Assembly (NCBI GenBank): GCA_028712885.1 | Contig: JAQTPK010000031.1 | Span: 1-34,069, forward strand | Length of the DNA stretch: 34,069 nt | From: Syntrophales bacterium | Lineage (GTDB): Bacteria; Desulfobacterota; Syntrophia; Syntrophales; UBA4778 | Direction: 5' to 3' | In this document: in pieces, positions 18,624 to 27,789 of the stretch | How the letters are laid out: every line of letters starts with the position of its first letter | Position numbering within the stretch: position 1 is the stretch's first letter | The notes under the pieces: model-generated | Database searches by the model: none | The model's input: only the letters and a program-made list of their open reading frames with translations | What the model was told of the DNA's origin: nothing | Position numbers and translations under genes: made by a program

Positions 18624-18974
18624 ATGTTCAACAAAGTCGTACTTGTCGGCCGCCTGGGTGCGGATCCCGAAACGCGCCAGTCCCAATCGGGAGTTGCCGT
18701 AGCCAGTTTCCGGCTCGCAACATTGGTGTCAAAGAGAAGCAAGTCCGGTCAGAAGGAAGAAAAAACCGACTGGCACCGCATTATCGCTTTCAGCAACCTG
18801 GCCGGTTTCTGCGGAAAATACCTGACCAAAGGCCGCCTTGTGCTTGTCGAAGGCCATCTATCCAACAGGGAATCCGCGGACAAAGGGCTTTTTACGGAAA
18901 TAGTGGCCTCCACCATTCAAGCCCTGGATCGCCCTCCCGACAGCAACAGGAATACGACAACCCCGAAGGAATGA
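18624..18974 (+). CDS. ssb: Single-stranded DNA-binding protein, short accessory form
   Basis: A 116-residue OB-fold protein starting MFNKVVLVGRLGADPETR, with TDWHRIIAFSNLAGFCGKYL near 48 and VEGHLSNRE near 75, the normal SSB core. It lacks the flexible tail and the acidic DDDIPF-like tip that recruits partner proteins, ending in NTTTPKE. Such short forms are common on plasmids and conjugative elements and are unlikely to be the chromosomal housekeeping copy. AGGAGG precedes the ATG. Its role here is probably protecting transferred or replicating single strands. Confidence 0.92.
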   Translation: MFNKVVLVGRLGADPETRQSQSGVAVASFRLATLVSKRSKSGQKEEKTDWHRIIAFSNLAGFCGKYLTKGRLVLVEGHLSNRESADKGLFTEIVASTIQALDRPPDSNRNTTTPKE

Positions 18975-19010
18975 AGCTATCGCTCAAGATGCAAAAAGGG
19001 AGAAGTGAAA

Positions 19011-19574
19011 ATGCCTGAATTCAACGTCAATACGCCGGATCGCCATTCCGTTGCAGAACTGAGGAAGAAAGCGATCGAGTGGCTGGAAAAGAAGGAAAAC
19101 ATGCGGAGAGTAAAGAGAGCGGGAAGAAAACTTATCACCGGCACTCCCTATTCCCTGGAGGATTGCGTACAGGCGGCATACTGCATCGCTCTTGACGCCG
19201 TTGCGCTGATGATTCGAAAAAAAGGTGAATTATCGTTCCAGCGCTGCTTCTGGGCGCTGTTTAATTTTCATATGAAAAACCTCCGCTCCACGTCCATTCG
19301 AACGATCTCCATCGAGCAATTGGAGAATCTTTCCATACCGTCGGAAGCTCTCACGCCTGACGAAATCCGGGAAAAGGCCGGCATGGAGCGGATGGCCATT
19401 TCCTATGCCGCGTGCGCACTGTCCGGAATCAAAGTCAGGACGGTCATTTCGATACTGGAAGGAAAAACACGCCGGCAGATTGCAGACGAGCTTTCCCTGA
19501 CGGAAGGCGCAGTCCGCTATCATGTCCGAACCGCAACGAAGATCCTTGAAGAATTCCGCGAATACGGCAAATAA
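19011..19574 (+). CDS. HTH protein with sigma region 4/LuxR-like C-terminus
   Basis: 187 residues, starting [12 protein letters not shown]. The last 60 residues form a helix-turn-helix: [20 protein letters not shown], like sigma-70 region 4 or LuxR/FixJ output domains. The N-terminal two thirds are helical and charged, with no receiver domain and no clear sigma region 2. The ATG at 19011 is chosen because GGGAG lies eight bases upstream; a GTG at 19005 is too close to it. It is probably a DNA-binding regulator of the module. It could also be a degenerate sigma factor. Confidence 0.7.
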
Positions 19575-19629
19575 AACAAAAGCGCCTCCCGTTCCGTTTT
19601 TTAACGGGCTTGGACAATTTACTGTAGGA

Positions 19630-20139
19630 ATGATTGTGAATAGCCGGAAGAAAAACAATGAAAAAATATTTTTGAAAAGACATGAAAGAGCGGTTCTCGT
19701 GCTGTGCGCGGCGGCCGCTATCTGTGGATGCCCCGGTCTCGCTCAGGGCCTTTATGAGCGCTGTTTCGAGCAGGCCGGACTGCAGTACGACATCTCGCCT
19801 CTCCTGCTTCGAGCCGTGGCGAAAACAGAAAGCAACTTCGTACCTTCCGCAATTCACCGCAATTCTGACGGTTCATATGATTACGGCATTATGCAAATCA
19901 ATTCACGATGGGAGCGTAAGATCGGCCGCAGGGGCTGGCTGCATCTTCGAGAGCCCTGCTACAACATCCACGTCGGGGCATGGATCCTTTCGCAGTGCAT
20001 GGGCCGGTACGGATATACATGGGAGGCTGTGGGCTGCTATAACGCCGTCCACAGAAAGAAGCGTCTGGCATATGCGCGAAAAGTTTCCGTCACGCTGCGC
20101 GAAATCGCGCGGTCCGAGGATGGATCCCGCAGAGATTGA
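19630..20139 (+). CDS. Lytic transglycosylase (SLT fold, VirB1-like)
   Basis: About 169 residues with a hydrophobic export signal ([16 protein letters not shown]) and then an SLT domain. The catalytic Glu is in [12 protein letters not shown], followed by [12 protein letters not shown] and [13 protein letters not shown]. It cleaves peptidoglycan glycan strands, which conjugation systems use to open the wall for the transfer channel. The start is uncertain: ATG 19630 (with TAGGA touching it) or TTG 19672, which would give a shorter and cleaner signal peptide. Its end overlaps the next gene by 20 bases. An earlier in-frame open stretch overlaps the HTH gene and is not accepted. Confidence 0.87.
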
Positions 20140-20890
20140 AATATTTCTGCAGGAAATCACCGATTCATACCGTGTCCCCGTCGATTTTGCCGTAGAGAAG
20201 CTGGAGCAGGCCTGCAACGAGGTGCTTGCCCGAATCACCGGCTATGAAATCGAGACCTGGGTCACGCGCAGGGAGTCGGGAACCGCCATCGTAATCTGGG
20301 CCATTTCCGGTCCATGGCATGATCCGGTCATCCGCCGGCTCGCACCGGATAAAATAGGCACAAATGCGGCCAAATGGATCGGCAGCCGAATCCGCGCCCT
20401 GATCAGGGAATATTCGGTGCTTGACCATTTCGGATCGCTTCTGCGCCTCCATCACAGAGTATATAACGGACAGATCTCAAAGCCGCCCGCGAGAGGGGCG
20501 CCTCTCATCGTGGACCTGACTTATACATACGCGGGAAACTCCGTGCAGACAGTGACCGCCGTCTGTCCTTTGAGATTTCAACCGCCGCGTGAGCGAGGAT
20601 CTTATGCTCTCGGCCAGGTGCATAAATTTTACGTCAGCAAAGTTCGGCTGGCGAAAAAAAGAAGGGAGCTCGGCATATCGATCGAGCTCAGCAGAACGAG
20701 CAGGAAGTTTCCCGAGACACTTATGAAAGATCTTTGCCGTGAAGTGCTGGACAGCCGAAGAGTAATCCGCTGCGTCCGCCGCGTCCTCGGTTACAGGACG
20801 GAGGTCGTCGTTTCCGATCCGTTGCCGAAAGAGGTTCTCCTCGCCGTCAGGCAGGAGATCGGTGAATATCTCCAGGTGAGATTTATTTGA
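20120..20890 (+). CDS. NusA-like protein, short paralogue
   Basis: 256 residues beginning [20 protein letters not shown]. By eye it follows NusA: an N-terminal domain with [19 protein letters not shown], an S1-like segment (about 110-195) ending [20 protein letters not shown] where NusA has its conserved LSRT...L.KLF, then the first KH part with [11 protein letters not shown] in place of NusA's G.R.KIAV. It stops soon after, so KH2 and acidic C-terminal repeats are missing. NusA binds RNA polymerase and nascent RNA and controls pausing, termination and antitermination. The ATG overlaps the transglycosylase gene, and its stop overlaps the TraD start. The assignment rests on my pattern match, not a search. 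Confidence 0.65.
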
Positions 20891-22290
20891 GCACGATCAC
20901 AACACTGAAGCGCATTATATGCGGAAAAGGAAAGGCATCCGCCGTACGGGATGACGGCGTCGCAATCGGAACCGGTTACCGTCTCGATTCCGCATCGCCC
21001 TCCGGCTACATCCTCCCGGAAAAAATTATTCTGGCTGACGCCTGGAGAAAAGGACACCTCTGGTGTTTCGGGACAACCCGCGTGGGAAAAACCAGAATAA
21101 TAGAAAACATGATCAGCCGGGACATTCACAGGGGGAACAGCGTCGTCATTATCGATCCTAAAGGCGACCAGGAACTCTTTGCCAAGACCGTCGAGACGGC
21201 CCTGGAGGCCGGAAGACTGGATGAAATGATGTTCATCTCTCCCGTTTTTCCGGAATACTCGATGACGGTGGACCCGCTCGCCCATTATTACATTCCTGAA
21301 GAGCTGGTGGCCCATATCATCAGCGGCGTGCAGGTCGGGCGCGAGCCTTTCTTCTACAATGTGGCTTACGAAATCAGCATCGCCATCGTTCAGGCGCTCC
21401 TGCTCACCAATGGAAGGCAGGGTCCCTCATTCAATCTGACGGATATAAAAAACTGCATGTCCAAATCGGAGCTTGAGCGCCTGGCCGGGAGAGTTGCTGA
21501 AGCCGATTCTCCGGATGCGCGACAGCTTTACACCGACATGAGGAAGATAATCGATTCTCCGCAGGACTACTACGGCAAGGTCTCATCTTCCCTGAGAGTC
21601 GCCCTGATGGAGCTGACAACCGGACATATCGGAAAAATTATCGGCAGGGAGCGTCATAACCTTTTCATCGAGCGTCTGGAAAAAGGAGAGCGGGTGATCA
21701 TGCTCGTCCACCTTGGAAGCCTGATGATCCGGAAGGCCGCATATACTCTGGGAAAAGTAATTCTGTCCATGATCCAGTCGTTTGTCGGGCGGGTTTTTTC
21801 CTCCGGAAGAACCGTTTCCCCTCCCCTCTCCCTTTATATCGATGAAGCGCACAACGTCCTCTATTTCATGATTGACGACCTCTTTGCCAAGGCCGGCGGC
21901 GCGGATATCTGGGTCCACGGATTCGTTCAGTCCGTATCCCAGCTGTATTCTTCAATCGGCAGGGACTACGCCAATACTGTTCTGGACAACACTAATACGA
22001 AAATTTTCATGAAAGTCCCTGATTATGAAACGGCGCAGTACGCAGCTTCCCACTTCGGGTGGAAAAGGAGGTATTCCGGCGTATTCGGGGCGGATGGAGG
22101 AATCACCATGAGAGAGGAGGAAACCGAATGCCTCAAGCCGGAAGACATTCTCTCCCTTGGCGAGAGGGAATTTTACCTGATGACATACTCGGGCTTATAC
22201 AGGGGGGAGTCGTCCCGGGTGGATCCCGCCCGTATCCGCATCCAGCTGCCCCGGATCAGCTCGGGAACGTCCGCTGCGGCGCCGGAATGA
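20887..22290 (+). CDS. traD: TraD/VirD4-type coupling ATPase
   Basis: A 467-residue hexameric-ATPase family protein. Walker A is GTTRVGKTR near residue 62, then VVIIDPKGDQELF near 87, Walker B is LSLYIDEAHNVLY near 315, followed by the helical bundle and a TraD C-terminal segment with TKIFMKVPDYETAQ. It is closest in pattern to TraD proteins of the ICE SXT/PFGI-1 type, which bring DNA or protein to a type IV secretion channel. It lacks the usual N-terminal membrane helices, so an anchor may come from a neighbouring membrane protein. The start is TTG, overlapping the stop of the NusA-like gene (TTGA). Confidence 0.88.
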   Translation: MSTITTLKRIICGKGKASAVRDDGVAIGTGYRLDSASPSGYILPEKIILADAWRKGHLWCFGTTRVGKTRIIENMISRDIHRGNSVVIIDPKGDQELFAKTVETALEAGRLDEMMFISPVFPEYSMTVDPLAHYYIPEELVAHIISGVQVGREPFFYNVAYEISIAIVQALLLTNGRQGPSFNLTDIKNCMSKSELERLAGRVAEADSPDARQLYTDMRKIIDSPQDYYGKVSSSLRVALMELTTGHIGKIIGRERHNLFIERLEKGERVIMLVHLGSLMIRKAAYTLGKVILSMIQSFVGRVFSSGRTVSPPLSLYIDEAHNVLYFMIDDLFAKAGGADIWVHGFVQSVSQLYSSIGRDYANTVLDNTNTKIFMKVPDYETAQYAASHFGWKRRYSGVFGADGGITMREEETECLKPEDILSLGEREFYLMTYSGLYRGESSRVDPARIRIQLPRISSGTSAAAPE

Positions 22291-23225
22291 CGGGCCGCAC
22301 AAAAATAACCGCCGCGTTTGCCGTCGTTGCGGCCTCGGCCTGCGCAATTTTTTTCGGGTTTCTGCTGAAAGAGCACGGAGGCCTGATTTTCCTGATTGCC
22401 CTTGTTGCGTTATCGGCCGCGCTGTGCGCGGGAGCGGCGCTGCCGGCATGCCGCCGTCGCGGCAGTCGCCCCGAGCCGGAAAAAAGTCCCCATGCATGCG
22501 CCAGGAAAGAAATACCGCTCGCGGAACTTGCCGCAATATGGAGGCCGTCCGGAAAAGGAAGTTTTTCGCCGGATTCCGGACAGGAAACCGGGGCAATGAA
22601 GATTGCGGAGAAAACCGACGGAGCAATTTTCAGGAACGCCTCGATCCGCAAGTTCTTTGAAGAAAACATCGGCAATGATTGCTTTTTTCCCCGCCGGGCC
22701 GCTTCCAGGGCCGTCGTGCTGGAACTGCTCTCGGTACTCGACCTGCATGGCGATTGTCCGTCGGTAGTCGACTGCGACATGAGATTCGTTTCAGGAAAAA
22801 AGGAGTCCGACGCGGAAAGGAGGAGAGCCGGCGGCGGCGGCCGGACTGTGTTCGAAATTCTTTCCGGCACGTCCCTGCGGGACCATTCGCTCGCCGTTGC
22901 GGAAGCGTCCGCCCGCAGGTGCGGCATTGGAAGCGGCGCACCGCTGATCATTATTTCAGCGCTCGCCCACGATCTGGGGAAATTGCCCCATTATCGGGAA
23001 AAGCCTTCCTTTCATTCGATCGACCATGCCCGGTCAAGCGCTTTGATCCTGAAAGGAATGCCGTCATTTTCTCTTCTCCCCTCCGGCATGGCGCGGGAAA
23101 TTGAAGACGCAGTGGCGAACCACCATCGACACAGGCCCGGCGCGCTCGCGGAAACCCTTCAAAAGGCCGATGCAGAATGCCGGGAGAAGGAGATTGCCGC
23201 AGCAAGAACCGGTCAACCGTGTTGA
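22287..23225 (+). CDS. Membrane-anchored HD-domain protein
   Basis: 312 residues. Two N-terminal hydrophobic segments (about 7-24 and 31-53) are followed by a basic linker. A C-terminal HD-type domain follows, with DHSLAVAEAS near 205, SALAHDLGKLPHY near 230, HSIDHARSS near 250 and AVANHHRHRPG near 280. HD domains are metal phosphohydrolases. In SXT/PFGI-1-type elements the gene beside traD is the MOBH relaxase TraI, which also has an HD motif, so this could be a remote or reduced relative (inference). The start overlaps the traD stop (ATGA). Confidence 0.7.
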   Translation: MTGRTKITAAFAVVAASACAIFFGFLLKEHGGLIFLIALVALSAALCAGAALPACRRRGSRPEPEKSPHACARKEIPLAELAAIWRPSGKGSFSPDSGQETGAMKIAEKTDGAIFRNASIRKFFEENIGNDCFFPRRAASRAVVLELLSVLDLHGDCPSVVDCDMRFVSGKKESDAERRRAGGGGRTVFEILSGTSLRDHSLAVAEASARRCGIGSGAPLIIISALAHDLGKLPHYREKPSFHSIDHARSSALILKGMPSFSLLPSGMAREIEDAVANHHRHRPGALAETLQKADAECREKEIAAARTGQPC

Positions 23226-23231
23226 GGAACC

Positions 23232-23480
23232 ATGCACCTGCTGGACTGCATTGATCCTCTGCACTACATATCCCAATCGGATTATACGGAATTCTGGACC
23301 GGCCTCTTCTCAACAATACTTCGCGGATTCTGGGGCAGATCGCTGGCCGTCATCCTTATTGTCCTTGCGTTTTACCTGGGGATCAGAAGACAGCGTTTCC
23401 AGCTCGGAATATGGTTTATTTTCCTGGCGGCAGGTGTGATTTACGGCGCCACACTGCTGAAGTGGCTCGGCCTTCTATAA
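23232..23480 (+). CDS. Small membrane protein
   Basis: 82 residues with two strong hydrophobic segments (about 33-51 and 58-80) and an aromatic N-terminus MHLLDCIDPLHYISQSDYTE. AGGA lies just before the ATG, six bases after the HD gene. No family recognised. The size and place suggest a part of a membrane complex encoded by the module. Confidence 0.65.
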   Translation: MHLLDCIDPLHYISQSDYTEFWTGLFSTILRGFWGRSLAVILIVLAFYLGIRRQRFQLGIWFIFLAAGVIYGATLLKWLGLL

Positions 23481-23576: not shown

Positions 23577-24287
23577 ATGACAAAAGGCGGCGGTCCGATA
23601 ATTACGATTCAGGGGGTTGCCGCCAAGCCGAAAGGCTTTTTTGAGGCGATAAGCCAGATTGAGCGATGCCATGAACTGGAATCGCGCGGAGGAGAAATTC
23701 CGGGCGGAATGTTTACGACTCAGAATAAAATCGAATTCTGGGAGGCCGGTTTCATCAGTTGTGTCTGGAGCGGATTATTGACTGTATCATTCACTCCCCT
23801 CGCAATCGGCGTCATCGAAAGAATGATTCCGGTATTCGGCGGCGACGAGCCGAGGGCGTTCGATCAGGTCCTCGTATTTTTCCTGGCTGTAAGCTTTACC
23901 CTCGGCTTTGCCGCATTCCTGGGCCGGCTGGGAAAGTTCTATGAAGGCATGTACACCAAAACCATGATCAGGAGCTTCCTGAGCGGGATCGCGATTGGCT
24001 CGGCCCTGAAAGTCTTTTTCTCTTTCATCCTGTTCCATTTTCTCGCCCTTTATGTCTCGGAACCGGTTCGGCTGGGAAATTTCATCCTGCTTGCCCGCGG
24101 GTGGATCTCGCCCGGGCGGCTTGAATCCATGTATTTTTTTCTGCTCAATTTCAGGAGAATCTATCTCATCTCGGCCTGGTTCGTCCTGATCACGACCATC
24201 TGTTACCTGTCGGTTCCCTTCGCGAGCATCGGGTTGAGGATCTGGAGAGACGACAGGATGAAAAAGAAAGGAGGAATTCGCATATGA
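23577..24287 (+). CDS. Polytopic membrane protein of unknown function
   Basis: 236 residues. A soluble N-terminal stretch of about 50 residues is followed by four hydrophobic segments (about 58-80, 93-115, 132-156 and 196-220). No family recognised. The ribosome site is weak. The space before it (23481-23576) contains repeat-like words GAGTTCCAAGTCCGGAGTCC. Its stop overlaps the next gene start (ATGA). Together with the 82-residue protein it could serve as membrane anchor for the TM-less coupling ATPase (inference). Confidence 0.65.
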   Translation: MTKGGGPIITIQGVAAKPKGFFEAISQIERCHELESRGGEIPGGMFTTQNKIEFWEAGFISCVWSGLLTVSFTPLAIGVIERMIPVFGGDEPRAFDQVLVFFLAVSFTLGFAAFLGRLGKFYEGMYTKTMIRSFLSGIAIGSALKVFFSFILFHFLALYVSEPVRLGNFILLARGWISPGRLESMYFFLLNFRRIYLISAWFVLITTICYLSVPFASIGLRIWRDDRMKKKGGIRI

Positions 24288-24649
24288 CGGAAGAAAACGG
24301 GGCGGCGCAGGCGGAAGCAACTAAAGCACAGTACGACGACAGGATCCGCAAGCGAATAGAGCGGAAAGTGAGCCTCGCCGAAGAGCGCGACTCGAGAGTA
24401 ACGTTCGCGTATACTCTTGATACGAGAATACTGCTTGATCTGCAGTATCCTCTGGACAGAAGCCTGCGGATCGCACGCTCAAGGGTGGGCGTGGACCCCA
24501 GGTACAGTCCTGAAATCGTGTTCGGCCTGATAGAAGAACTTTACGGTGCTTTCATGAAGCTTGACGAAATCAACCGCAGGCTCTGCGATCTTACGGGGCG
24601 GCCTTACCGCACGCCGCGTTTCCTGGAGAAGTTCCGGAAGCAGGAATAG
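24284..24649 (+). CDS. Hypothetical charged helical protein
   Basis: 121 residues, MTEENGAAQAEATKAQYDDR onward, highly charged and mostly helical, with no signal or membrane segment. AAAGGAGG lies nine bases before the ATG, a strong ribosome site, and translation is coupled to the upstream membrane protein. It is the last gene of the accessory run, and I do not recognise a family. Confidence 0.65.
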   Translation: MTEENGAAQAEATKAQYDDRIRKRIERKVSLAEERDSRVTFAYTLDTRILLDLQYPLDRSLRIARSRVGVDPRYSPEIVFGLIEELYGAFMKLDEINRRLCDLTGRPYRTPRFLEKFRKQE

Positions 24650-24854: not shown

Positions 24855-25598
24855 CTATAAGGAACTCCCTGAATGAGGGCATACTTTGTCAAGCCATTTT
24901 AATATTTCAGGTGCCGTCTTCTTCCCAGGCACCTCTCTTCTGTCGTAAATCACCCGATGCTTCAACTGAACTCTGCATACCGTGAATGCGTATCTCGGCG
25001 GCCGGCTGTTGTCGGTCAGAATAGCGGCATCACTCTCACCAATTGCCATGCTGACTGCTTTCTGTGTTCTCGGGAAGCGTGAAATAATTTTCCTGCGGTC
25101 AACTCCATGTCCACCTTGAGCAACTCTACTGAGAACGCGTCCTTCGGAGACCTGAGCGCTTGAAAGACCCACAAAAAACAAAAGGACAAAATATCCGGCG
25201 TTCTGCATTCCCTTTATAAGATCAATTTTGGATCGTCGTTTTCCATCCACAAATCTCCATTCCGAGAAAACCGTTTCCATAGCGAAAGGGACCTTCCTGA
25301 GAATGGCGTGCGCGACGAATGCCTGTACTCCATGCTGGGCTACATGCATCCAGCTTTTATCTCTATCTCTGATTTGTGTCGCCCAGAGAGGCAATCGAGG
25401 TGGGCGTCCGGTTTCTTCGGGCAATATGGACATCATCATGCGATCGGCATTTATAAGGGGCATTTGAAAACGATCGGCAAGACGTCTTCGCCACATAGTC
25501 GATTTGCCGGAGCCGTTATGACCAGCAAGTATAATAGCAAGAGGCTTTTTGGAATTTTTTTGAGCGGATAGGATGGTCTCGACTGCTTCCGTCAGCAT
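24855..25598 (-). CDS. Zeta-toxin family P-loop kinase
   Basis: 247 residues with Walker A GHNGSGKST near 26, LINADRMM near 49, and AMETVFSE near 105, the pattern of zeta toxins and related UDP-GlcNAc kinases. These stop growth by blocking cell-wall precursor synthesis. The conserved Asp/Arg of the ADR motif is present. The gene lies two bases after the antitoxin-like gene on the same strand, in toxin-antitoxin order. Base composition is lower in GC than its neighbours, suggesting recent acquisition. It could stabilise the accessory module next to it. Confidence 0.85.
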   Translation of the reverse strand: MLTEAVETILSAQKNSKKPLAIILAGHNGSGKSTMWRRRLADRFQMPLINADRMMMSILPEETGRPPRLPLWATQIRDRDKSWMHVAQHGVQAFVAHAILRKVPFAMETVFSEWRFVDGKRRSKIDLIKGMQNAGYFVLLFFVGLSSAQVSEGRVLSRVAQGGHGVDRRKIISRFPRTQKAVSMAIGESDAAILTDNSRPPRYAFTVCRVQLKHRVIYDRREVPGKKTAPEILKWLDKVCPHSGSSL

Positions 25599-25600
25599 CG

Positions 25601-25909
25601 TTACGGAATTCGAGTAAAATGACCTTTTACGAATTTACCTCTTTCAAGCTTTCCGTCACACTTACGAATCAAGAGATCCGGATTTTTTGGATCCGCAATA
25701 AAGAGAGGCACACCTTTGGCAGTTTTGATCCTTACGCCGGGAGTGATTATTTTCTTTTTTGCTCTAGCGAAAGCAGTCTGACCCGCTTTGATATTGCGTT
25801 TGACTTCAGCTCCTGACACAGCTGGCGCTGTTACTTTGACTGAGCCGAACTTCACACTTATATTCCCGTTTTTCTGCCCTTTAACCAGCGCACTATACTT
25901 TATTATCAT
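25601..25909 (-). CDS. Putative antitoxin of the zeta-type module
   Basis: 102 residues, basic, MIIKYSALVKGQKNGNISVK onward, with a small beta-rich start and a middle segment AKKKIITPGVRIKTAKGVPL. No epsilon or PezA antitoxin motif is visible, so it is called by position: first gene, small, tightly coupled to a zeta-like toxin, behind a palindromic promoter. It may belong to a stand-alone antitoxin family that pairs with type II zeta-like kinases. Confidence 0.6.
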   Translation of the reverse strand: MIIKYSALVKGQKNGNISVKFGSVKVTAPAVSGAEVKRNIKAGQTAFARAKKKIITPGVRIKTAKGVPLFIADPKNPDLLIRKCDGKLERGKFVKGHFTRIP

Positions 25910-26582: not shown

Positions 26583-26636
26583 CTTTAGATAAAGTTTTGT
26601 GATTCGTCAAACACACATCTCACCTTGTCGGCTGCG

Positions 26637-26864
26637 CCTCCTATCCTTGCATCTTCCCAATTTCGCATCTTCGTCTTTTCTCACCCTCTCACCATCTCAA
26701 CCTCTCACCTTCTGATTCCTAGCCCTCCTATCCTCGCATCTTCCCAACTTCGCATCTTCGTATTTTCTCACCCTCTCACCATCTCAACCTCTCACCTTCT
26801 GATTCCTAGCCCTCCTATCCTTGCATCTTCCCAATTTCGCATCTTCGTCTTTTCTCACCCTCTC
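26637..26864. repeat. 87-bp tandem repeat, two full copies and a partial third
   Basis: Copies start at 26637, 26724 and 26811 and differ at only a few bases. Each contains GCATCTTC, CCCAATTTCGC, TCACCCTCTCACC and CTCACCTTCTG, the reverse complement of the GCGAAGATG/GTGAGAGG vocabulary at 15242 and 27811. The third copy runs into the EamA stop codon. The unit has no spacer/repeat structure, so it is not a CRISPR array. Confidence 0.9.
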
Positions 26865-27789
26865 AGTCGCTCGGCTTCTCAGCTTCTATTCCTTTTCGCA
26901 ATTCCGTGCGGAATACCCCCATGACCGCAAGGATGATCATAGCCGCTCCCGCCGCGATATTCCAGGAAAGGGGTTCGCCGAGAACGAGCCATCCGAGAAC
27001 AACCGCCAGCACCGGGTTGACGTACGCAAACGTCATCACGATGTCGACGGGAAGGAGCCTGAGGGTCATCACATAAGAAGTGAACGCAAGCACCGAGCCG
27101 AACAGGATCAGATAGCCCCATGCCGCCCATGCTTCGGGGATCGGGGCGGGAGCCGGCTCGCCGAGTACAAGCGATATCAGAATCAGGACTGCCGCCGAGG
27201 ACAAGTGCTGATACGCGGAAACCGCGAAGCCGGAGAGATCCAGGGGACGCCTGGCCTGGAAGACCGAGCCGATCGACCAGTTAATGGACGCAAGAACCAG
27301 GGCTGCTGCGGCGACGAATTGATTCGCGAACCCGCCCGCTCCCGGCGCTAAAAGAAAACCCACCCCCGCAAAGCCCAACAGGAGATAAAGCATCAGGCGC
27401 AGGGAAGGCTTTTCCCGCACGAGTGCGGATTCCGTCAGCGCCGTCCAGATCGGGATGGTGGAAACCAGAAGCGCTGTTATGCCGGAACCCACGGACTGCT
27501 CCGCCCAGGTGATGAGCCCGTTGCTGCCGACCCAGAGCATGACGCCGGAAAACGATGCGACATAAAGCTCTCTCCGGGTAATCCGGATCCGGTCCTTTCG
27601 AAGAAGACAGATTCCGATCAGAATCAGACCCGCCACCAGCATCCGGCTCCCCGCCATGATGAAGGGGGGAAAACCGCTCCCTTCCCGCACCGCCACGCGG
27701 ATTGCAAGATAAGTACTGCTCCAGACGGTATATACTACAAGAAGGTGCAGCAGCCCCGGGGTGGATAGGTGCTCGATTCGGCGGATCAA
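26863..27789 (-). CDS. EamA/DMT-family transporter
   Basis: 308 residues with ten hydrophobic segments in two repeated halves, the standard drug/metabolite transporter layout. Motifs include YTVWSSTYLAIRVAV near 20 and AYVNPVLAVVLGWLVLGEPL near 255. Substrate unknown; likely an inner-membrane exporter. The start is TTG (27787-27789), chosen because AGGGAG lies nine bases upstream. The last few codons and the stop are made of the adjacent GAGAAGCCGAGCGACTGAGAG repeat words. Confidence 0.9.
   Translation of the reverse strand: MIRRIEHLSTPGLLHLLVVYTVWSSTYLAIRVAVREGSGFPPFIMAGSRMLVAGLILIGICLLRKDRIRITRRELYVASFSGVMLWVGSNGLITWAEQSVGSGITALLVSTIPIWTALTESALVREKPSLRLMLYLLLGFAGVGFLLAPGAGGFANQFVAAAALVLASINWSIGSVFQARRPLDLSGFAVSAYQHLSSAAVLILISLVLGEPAPAPIPEAWAAWGYLILFGSVLAFTSYVMTLRLLPVDIVMTFAYVNPVLAVVLGWLVLGEPLSWNIAAGAAMIILAVMGVFRTELRKGIEAEKPSD

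Follow-up and report, generated by a model that had tools for sequence, protein, structure and literature searches.

What is the small gene between a lytic transglycosylase gene and traD in a conjugation-type gene row of this Syntrophales bacterium, and what might its product do there? A sequence-only reading of the DNA had described a NusA-like protein of 256 residues, whose gene overlaps both neighbors. We followed this up in the window, that is, the whole stretch of 34,069 nucleotides, with profile searches, structure prediction and a survey of related elements, and refer to the protein as NusAL.

The NusAL gene and its row

The NusAL open reading frame starts with an ATG at position 20120, and its stop codon ends at 20890. 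The overlaps are confirmed: the start lies within the lytic transglycosylase reading frame (20 nt), and the stop overlaps the TTG start codon of traD (4 nt). NusAL is translationally coupled to the lytic transglycosylase upstream and to TraD downstream. The row, all on the plus strand, contains the following genes:

18624-18974 (+), single-strand DNA-binding protein, ssb (Pfam SSB, 5e-27)
19005-19574 (+), sigma-70/ECF-like protein (TIGR02937, 1.3e-7, near full length, below the curated cut-off)
19522-20139 (+), lytic transglycosylase, slt, VirB1/IagB-like, start codon uncertain (Pfam SLT, 1.9e-20)
20120-20890 (+), NusAL, element-borne NusA paralogue of 256 aa (TIGR01953, hhalign, Foldseek, relatives)
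20887-22290 (+), TraD-type coupling protein, SXT/TOL-like, TTG start (TIGR03743, 1.2e-44; TIGR03754, 3.5e-34; Pfam TraG-D_C, 6e-13)
22291-23225 (+), HD-domain protein, start codon uncertain (Pfam HD, 2.6e-8; conserved downstream of TraD by synteny)
23232-23480 (+), small membrane protein kept across these TraD elements (synteny)
23577-24287 (+), membrane protein family present in most of these TraD elements (synteny)
24284-24649 (+), small protein conserved in the module (synteny)

The window corresponds to the entire contig C43, in which apparently chromosomal genes flank the module on both sides; the TraL-E-K-B-V-C genes of the same genome sit on contig C54. The HD-domain gene (22291-23225 in the window; L015:21861-23381) is found directly 3' of traD in nearly all loci, and because typing places most of these plasmids among the non-mobilizable ones, its product may be an unrecognized MOBH-like relaxase or another transfer protein. 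The membrane protein family encoded at 23577-24287 has no Pfam or NCBIfam match and accompanies this TraD in most elements, in two phyla. At the edge of the module, a gene for a zeta-toxin-like kinase (24855-25909, minus strand) lies beside a 102-aa reading frame, a possible toxin-antitoxin pair. Short reiterated coding-like repeats (SPPILASSQFRIFVFSHPL) at 26625-26924 are probably intergenic repeat DNA, and Rfam locates a class A RNase P RNA at 43-453 and a tRNA gene at 1926-1998, both on the minus strand.

Relationship of NusAL to NusA

The NCBIfam NusA model TIGR01953 matches residues 73-232 of NusAL (E 9.8e-10, 37.9 bits), and also matches all five of its first relatives. As the score is far under the cut-off of the model (253.4 bits), the match identifies the predicted protein as a homolog of NusA, not as a housekeeping equivalog. 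When a 22-member NusAL alignment was compared with nine host NusAs by hhalign, we obtained a score of 80.3 (E 7.3e-11) for 199 columns running through the N-terminal domain (NTD), the S1 domain and the entry into KH1, while among the controls the reversed NusAL family scored 18.5 and 30 column shuffles did not exceed 21.3. The NusA-like domain order with an LSRT segment and a GYRTEVVV-like KH entry, noticed by the sequence-only reading, is present and lies well above chance by TIGR01953 and by hhalign. A 19-row NusAL profile returned Mycobacterium tuberculosis NusA from the PDB (3.8e-9), all further matches up to 0.012 being NusA as well, and in a scan of 395 genomes the next matches of the NusAL profile after the NusAL loci were NusA-length frames of about 410-600 aa. 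Foldseek searches with two AlphaFold models (mean pLDDT 66.8 and 66.1, both built on 3-row alignments) listed only NusA among the first 19 and 20 PDB matches, respectively. The NGN-KOW domains that mark NusG paralogues were not found in NusAL, its profiles and folds matching NusA only.

Pfam gave no match for a single NusAL sequence, phmmer found no NusA in the PDB, BLASTP against the NusA of the host itself was not significant, and a single-sequence search of the genome contigs returned nothing. The homology is missed by single-sequence Pfam and phmmer searches and is detected only by NCBIfam and by family profiles. Taken together, sequence profiles, profile-profile alignment and comparison of predicted structures all rank NusA first, and identify NusAL as a NusA paralogue rather than another fold, in line with the initial assignment.

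The host genome has a single full-length NusA of 419 aa, encoded on a different contig, and a full-length NusA scoring over the curated cut-off is present in 12 of the 12 NusAL genomes tested. We considered NusAL as a recent duplicate of the host protein and rejected this: in a tree, the host NusAs group in a single clade that contains no NusAL, although some NusAL branches are long and leave the branching order within NusAL uncertain. From this we infer that NusAL is an old, separate lineage and not a recent copy. A phage origin was also rejected, as none was found in phages, in IMG/VR scans or among viral structures below 1e-3. In close NusAL pairs dN/dS amounts to 0.06-0.33, indicating that the gene is maintained by purifying selection.

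The predicted domains of NusAL are arranged as follows:

20120-20359 (+), NusA N-terminal domain, shortened, residues 1-80 (AF2 pLDDT about 60-85; alignment with the NusA NTD)
20360-20449 (+), long basic linker helix between NTD and S1, residues 81-110 (AF2 helix 81-110; aligns to the NusA linker helix)
20459-20692 (+), S1-like barrel ending in LSRT, residues 114-191 (hhalign, AF2, PDB profile)
20708-20887 (+), reduced KH1 with no GxxG and one helix fewer, followed by neither KH2 nor AR, residues 197-256 (spacing count, model)

In the AF2 model the NTD begins with two helices, which are followed by strands, and by hhalign it is about 24 columns shorter than that of NusA. The protein had been described as ending in a first KH part and lacking KH2. 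KH2 is indeed absent: all NusALs stop after KH1, without KH2 or AR domains. KH1, however, is not merely cut at its end but internally reduced; it keeps its last strand, and about 12 residues with the GxxG loop are gone from its middle. Between the arginine of the entry motif and a glutamate near the last strand we count 24-27 residues in 22 NusALs versus 37 in 11 NusAs. GxxG occurs in none of these 22 proteins, and is likewise missing from two members found later (G224, BuS5). The KH1 part of the model of a Syntrophaceae relative reads helix-strand-strand-helix-strand (pLDDT 68-84), suggesting a KH1 that has lost one helix and the GxxG turn. What appears to remain are the N-terminal module, predicted to bind RNA polymerase, the S1 module, and a KH1 without its RNA-gripping loop.

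This domain content bears on the idea that NusAL has lost RNA polymerase binding and acts as an RNA-binding post-transcriptional regulator, controlling how tra mRNA is translated or how stable it is. Conservation along the protein is highest in S1, the Campylobacterota members described below also match models of ribosomal protein S1, and translational coupling to traD would suit such a role. We nevertheless consider it unlikely, as the NTD and linker helix, which are specific to NusA and absent from S1 proteins, are kept and align with NusA, whereas the RNA-binding GxxG loop is lost.

Distribution and genomic context

We found 24 NusAL members, 18 of them loci in 14 Thermodesulfobacteriota genomes (G000, G036, G224, G351, G355, G373, G413, G426, G468, G487 and G503 with one each, G019 and G038 with two, and G498 with three) and six on plasmids. 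Plasmids pSD from Geobacter anodireducens and pPRO1 from Pelobacter propionicus are both typed MPF_F, one plasmid is from Desulfosarcina sp. BuS5, and the others are from Campylobacterota (Campylobacter upsaliensis, C. iguaniorum pCIG1485E and Nitrosophilus labii pHRV44). Taken singly, the three Campylobacterota proteins give weak TIGR01953 matches or none; by profile they fall within the NusAL family (E 2e-13 to 3e-12; hhalign 98.3%). Several NusAL-TraD loci can occur in one genome, with two in G038 (contigs C9 and C55) and three in G498 (C111, C115 and C118).

The gene had been assigned to the conjugation module on the basis of its position, and its co-occurrence with traD bears this out. 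Among 395 genomes sampled from the phylum, this type of TraD is present in 16, which include 11 of the 11 NusAL genomes (hypergeometric 5e-18, an overstated value that treats genomes as independent though the elements are related; the genomes span many families). PLSDB contains seven plasmids with this TraD, six of which encode NusAL; the seventh, pACIB, has a weak candidate reading frame near the head of the row (L146:37278-37952, minus strand, E 0.07).

NusAL is located immediately upstream of traD in 17 loci, usually in the order slt, NusAL, traD, HD gene. On the three Campylobacterota plasmids it lies a few genes upstream of traD in the same row, which it opens or in which it comes second, following a divergent HTH gene. 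The tra genes of G036 extend over about 34 kb, and almost all of them share one strand. Adjacency to traD, in most loci with overlapping start and stop codons, could mean that NusAL assists the coupling protein or the relaxosome, as a TraD partner that binds protein or ssDNA and is encoded next to traD for complex assembly; S1/OB folds can bind ssDNA. Such a role seems improbable to us. In G355 NusAL is near traD but on the opposite strand, and on contig C153 of G019, in G224 and in BuS5 it is located away from traD (by 9.3 kb in BuS5), near ssb, rep and sigma-70-like genes. Moreover, the fold of NusAL is specifically that of NusA.

Further candidate transcription factors are encoded at these elements. 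In G500, whose TraD is 42% identical, a reading frame between ssb and traD (L095:10978-11409, minus strand, 136-144 aa) resembles NusG, RfaH and UpxY (3e-4 to 3e-3 with RfaH/UpxY/NusG models; 0.005 with a NusG KOW domain from the PDB), and NusAL was not found in the 20 kb surrounding the locus. By sequence, a relative of another general elongation factor would fill the slot of NusAL in this single locus, which also argues against a post-transcriptional regulator. Diverged sigma-70/ECF-like genes are found near NusAL in five elements (the window, G019, G224, G355 and BuS5; 19005-19574 in the window, L056:179-745, L141:4589-5116, L094:7152-7988 and L145:6994-7551). Their products all score below curated cut-offs, the one in BuS5 being annotated as sigma-70 by RefSeq, and are possibly element-specific sigma factors. 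The vir operon of plasmid R6K has at its head the gene for ActX, a NusG paralogue, beside the lytic transglycosylase gene sltX1 (PMC13250579). The NusG-like gene in the G500 slot, ActX beside sltX1 and the nearby sigma-70-like genes together suggest that the process NusAL serves is transcription and not DNA transfer.

Proposed function and comparison with known systems

We propose that NusAL, a NusA derivative, probably acts as an elongation factor dedicated to transcription of the element and serves antitermination of transfer operons. The proposal builds on the observed homology, domain content, KH1 reduction, operon position, co-occurrence with TraD and purifying selection; from these we infer RNA polymerase binding, target specificity, and antitermination rather than enforced pausing. 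The NTD of NusA binds the flap-tip helix and the alpha-CTD of RNA polymerase, and its S1, KH1 and KH2 domains line the RNA path (PMC8940904). NusAL, produced early from the transfer operon, would dock with its NTD on host RNA polymerase at the position used by the NusA NTD (beta flap tip/RNA exit channel), its S1 barrel touching the emerging RNA. With KH2 and the AR domains absent and KH1 deprived of its GxxG loop, most of the RNA-gripping and regulatory surface of NusA would be gone. NusAL would then displace host NusA, or compete with it, on polymerases that transcribe the element, and these polymerases would pass the pauses and terminators of long transfer operons. Because NusA normally promotes pausing and termination, the effect of NusAL could also run in the opposite direction.

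LoaP antiterminates by antagonizing NusA, and this antagonism alone can give antitermination (PMC12691694). The same precedent fits a dominant interference by NusAL, in which it would titrate host RNA polymerase against host NusA and dampen host transcription, or Rho/NusA-dependent silencing, globally; a truncated protein would compete for the NusA site without the KH and AR functions. Its location at the head of transfer modules, or close to it, suggests a function specific to the operon instead, and we regard global interference as a poor prospect. For an operon-specific antiterminator, we looked at the surrounding DNA and found no conserved leader RNA and no nut- or ops-like site near NusAL, Rfam yielding nothing in the cluster; what aligns upstream of NusAL in the Syntrophales trio is mostly a coding gene. 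Terminator-like sites are only mildly above shuffled sequences in the window cluster, and not clearly above them in pPRO1.

More tentatively, the elements may carry a "private transcription kit", comprising the NusA-derived factor and, in some of them, a sigma-70-like factor, by which the host RNA polymerase of Thermodesulfobacteriota and Campylobacterota would be reprogrammed to transcribe transfer genes; this would be the first class of specialized NusA paralogues. In the largely open-access literature searched, we found no report of a NusA paralogue or of a plasmid- or ICE-borne NusA, and the impression of the sequence-only reading that no element-borne NusA had been described stands within that scope. 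Specialized NusG paralogues (RfaH, ActX, LoaP and UpxY) are well-known cases of operons that bring their own elongation factor. New here would be such an element-borne factor from NusA, those from NusG (ActX, RfaH) being already known, and a NusA counterpart widespread in conjugation modules would mean that mobile DNA has recruited the second major Nus factor as well. NusAL represents a natural experiment in doing without parts of NusA (KH2, AR, GxxG) and is a concrete candidate for controlling transfer in elements from syntrophic, metal-reducing and Campylobacterota bacteria; genes now called hypothetical become testable on pSD, pPRO1, pCIG1485E and pHRV44.

Compared with housekeeping NusA (TIGR01953), NusAL retains the order NTD, linker helix, S1 and KH1 entry, including the LSRx segment and the KH1 entry motif, and finds its best profile and Foldseek matches there. 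Unlike NusA, it is element-borne and outside the host NusA clade, comprises about 221-262 aa versus 387-450 aa in the host NusAs, and lacks KH2 and AR, GxxG with about 12 residues of KH1, and about 24 NTD columns. A dedicated antitermination system for conjugation operons, similar by its description to the role proposed here, is the bipartite system of pLS20-type plasmids (PMC8955417), which, unlike NusAL, was described in Gram-positive plasmids. ActX is encoded primarily on conjugative plasmids (PMC12691694), and NusAL resembles ActX-type factors in its location in the transfer operon of mobile elements whose host keeps a separate housekeeping copy. With ActX, RfaH, UpxY and LoaP it would share, by analogy, the role of a specialized paralogue of a general elongation factor; those proteins are NusG-derived (NGN-KOW), whereas NusAL is NusA-derived and no ops-like site was found for it. 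We thus propose, by this analogy, that NusAL is the NusA counterpart of ActX and RfaH.
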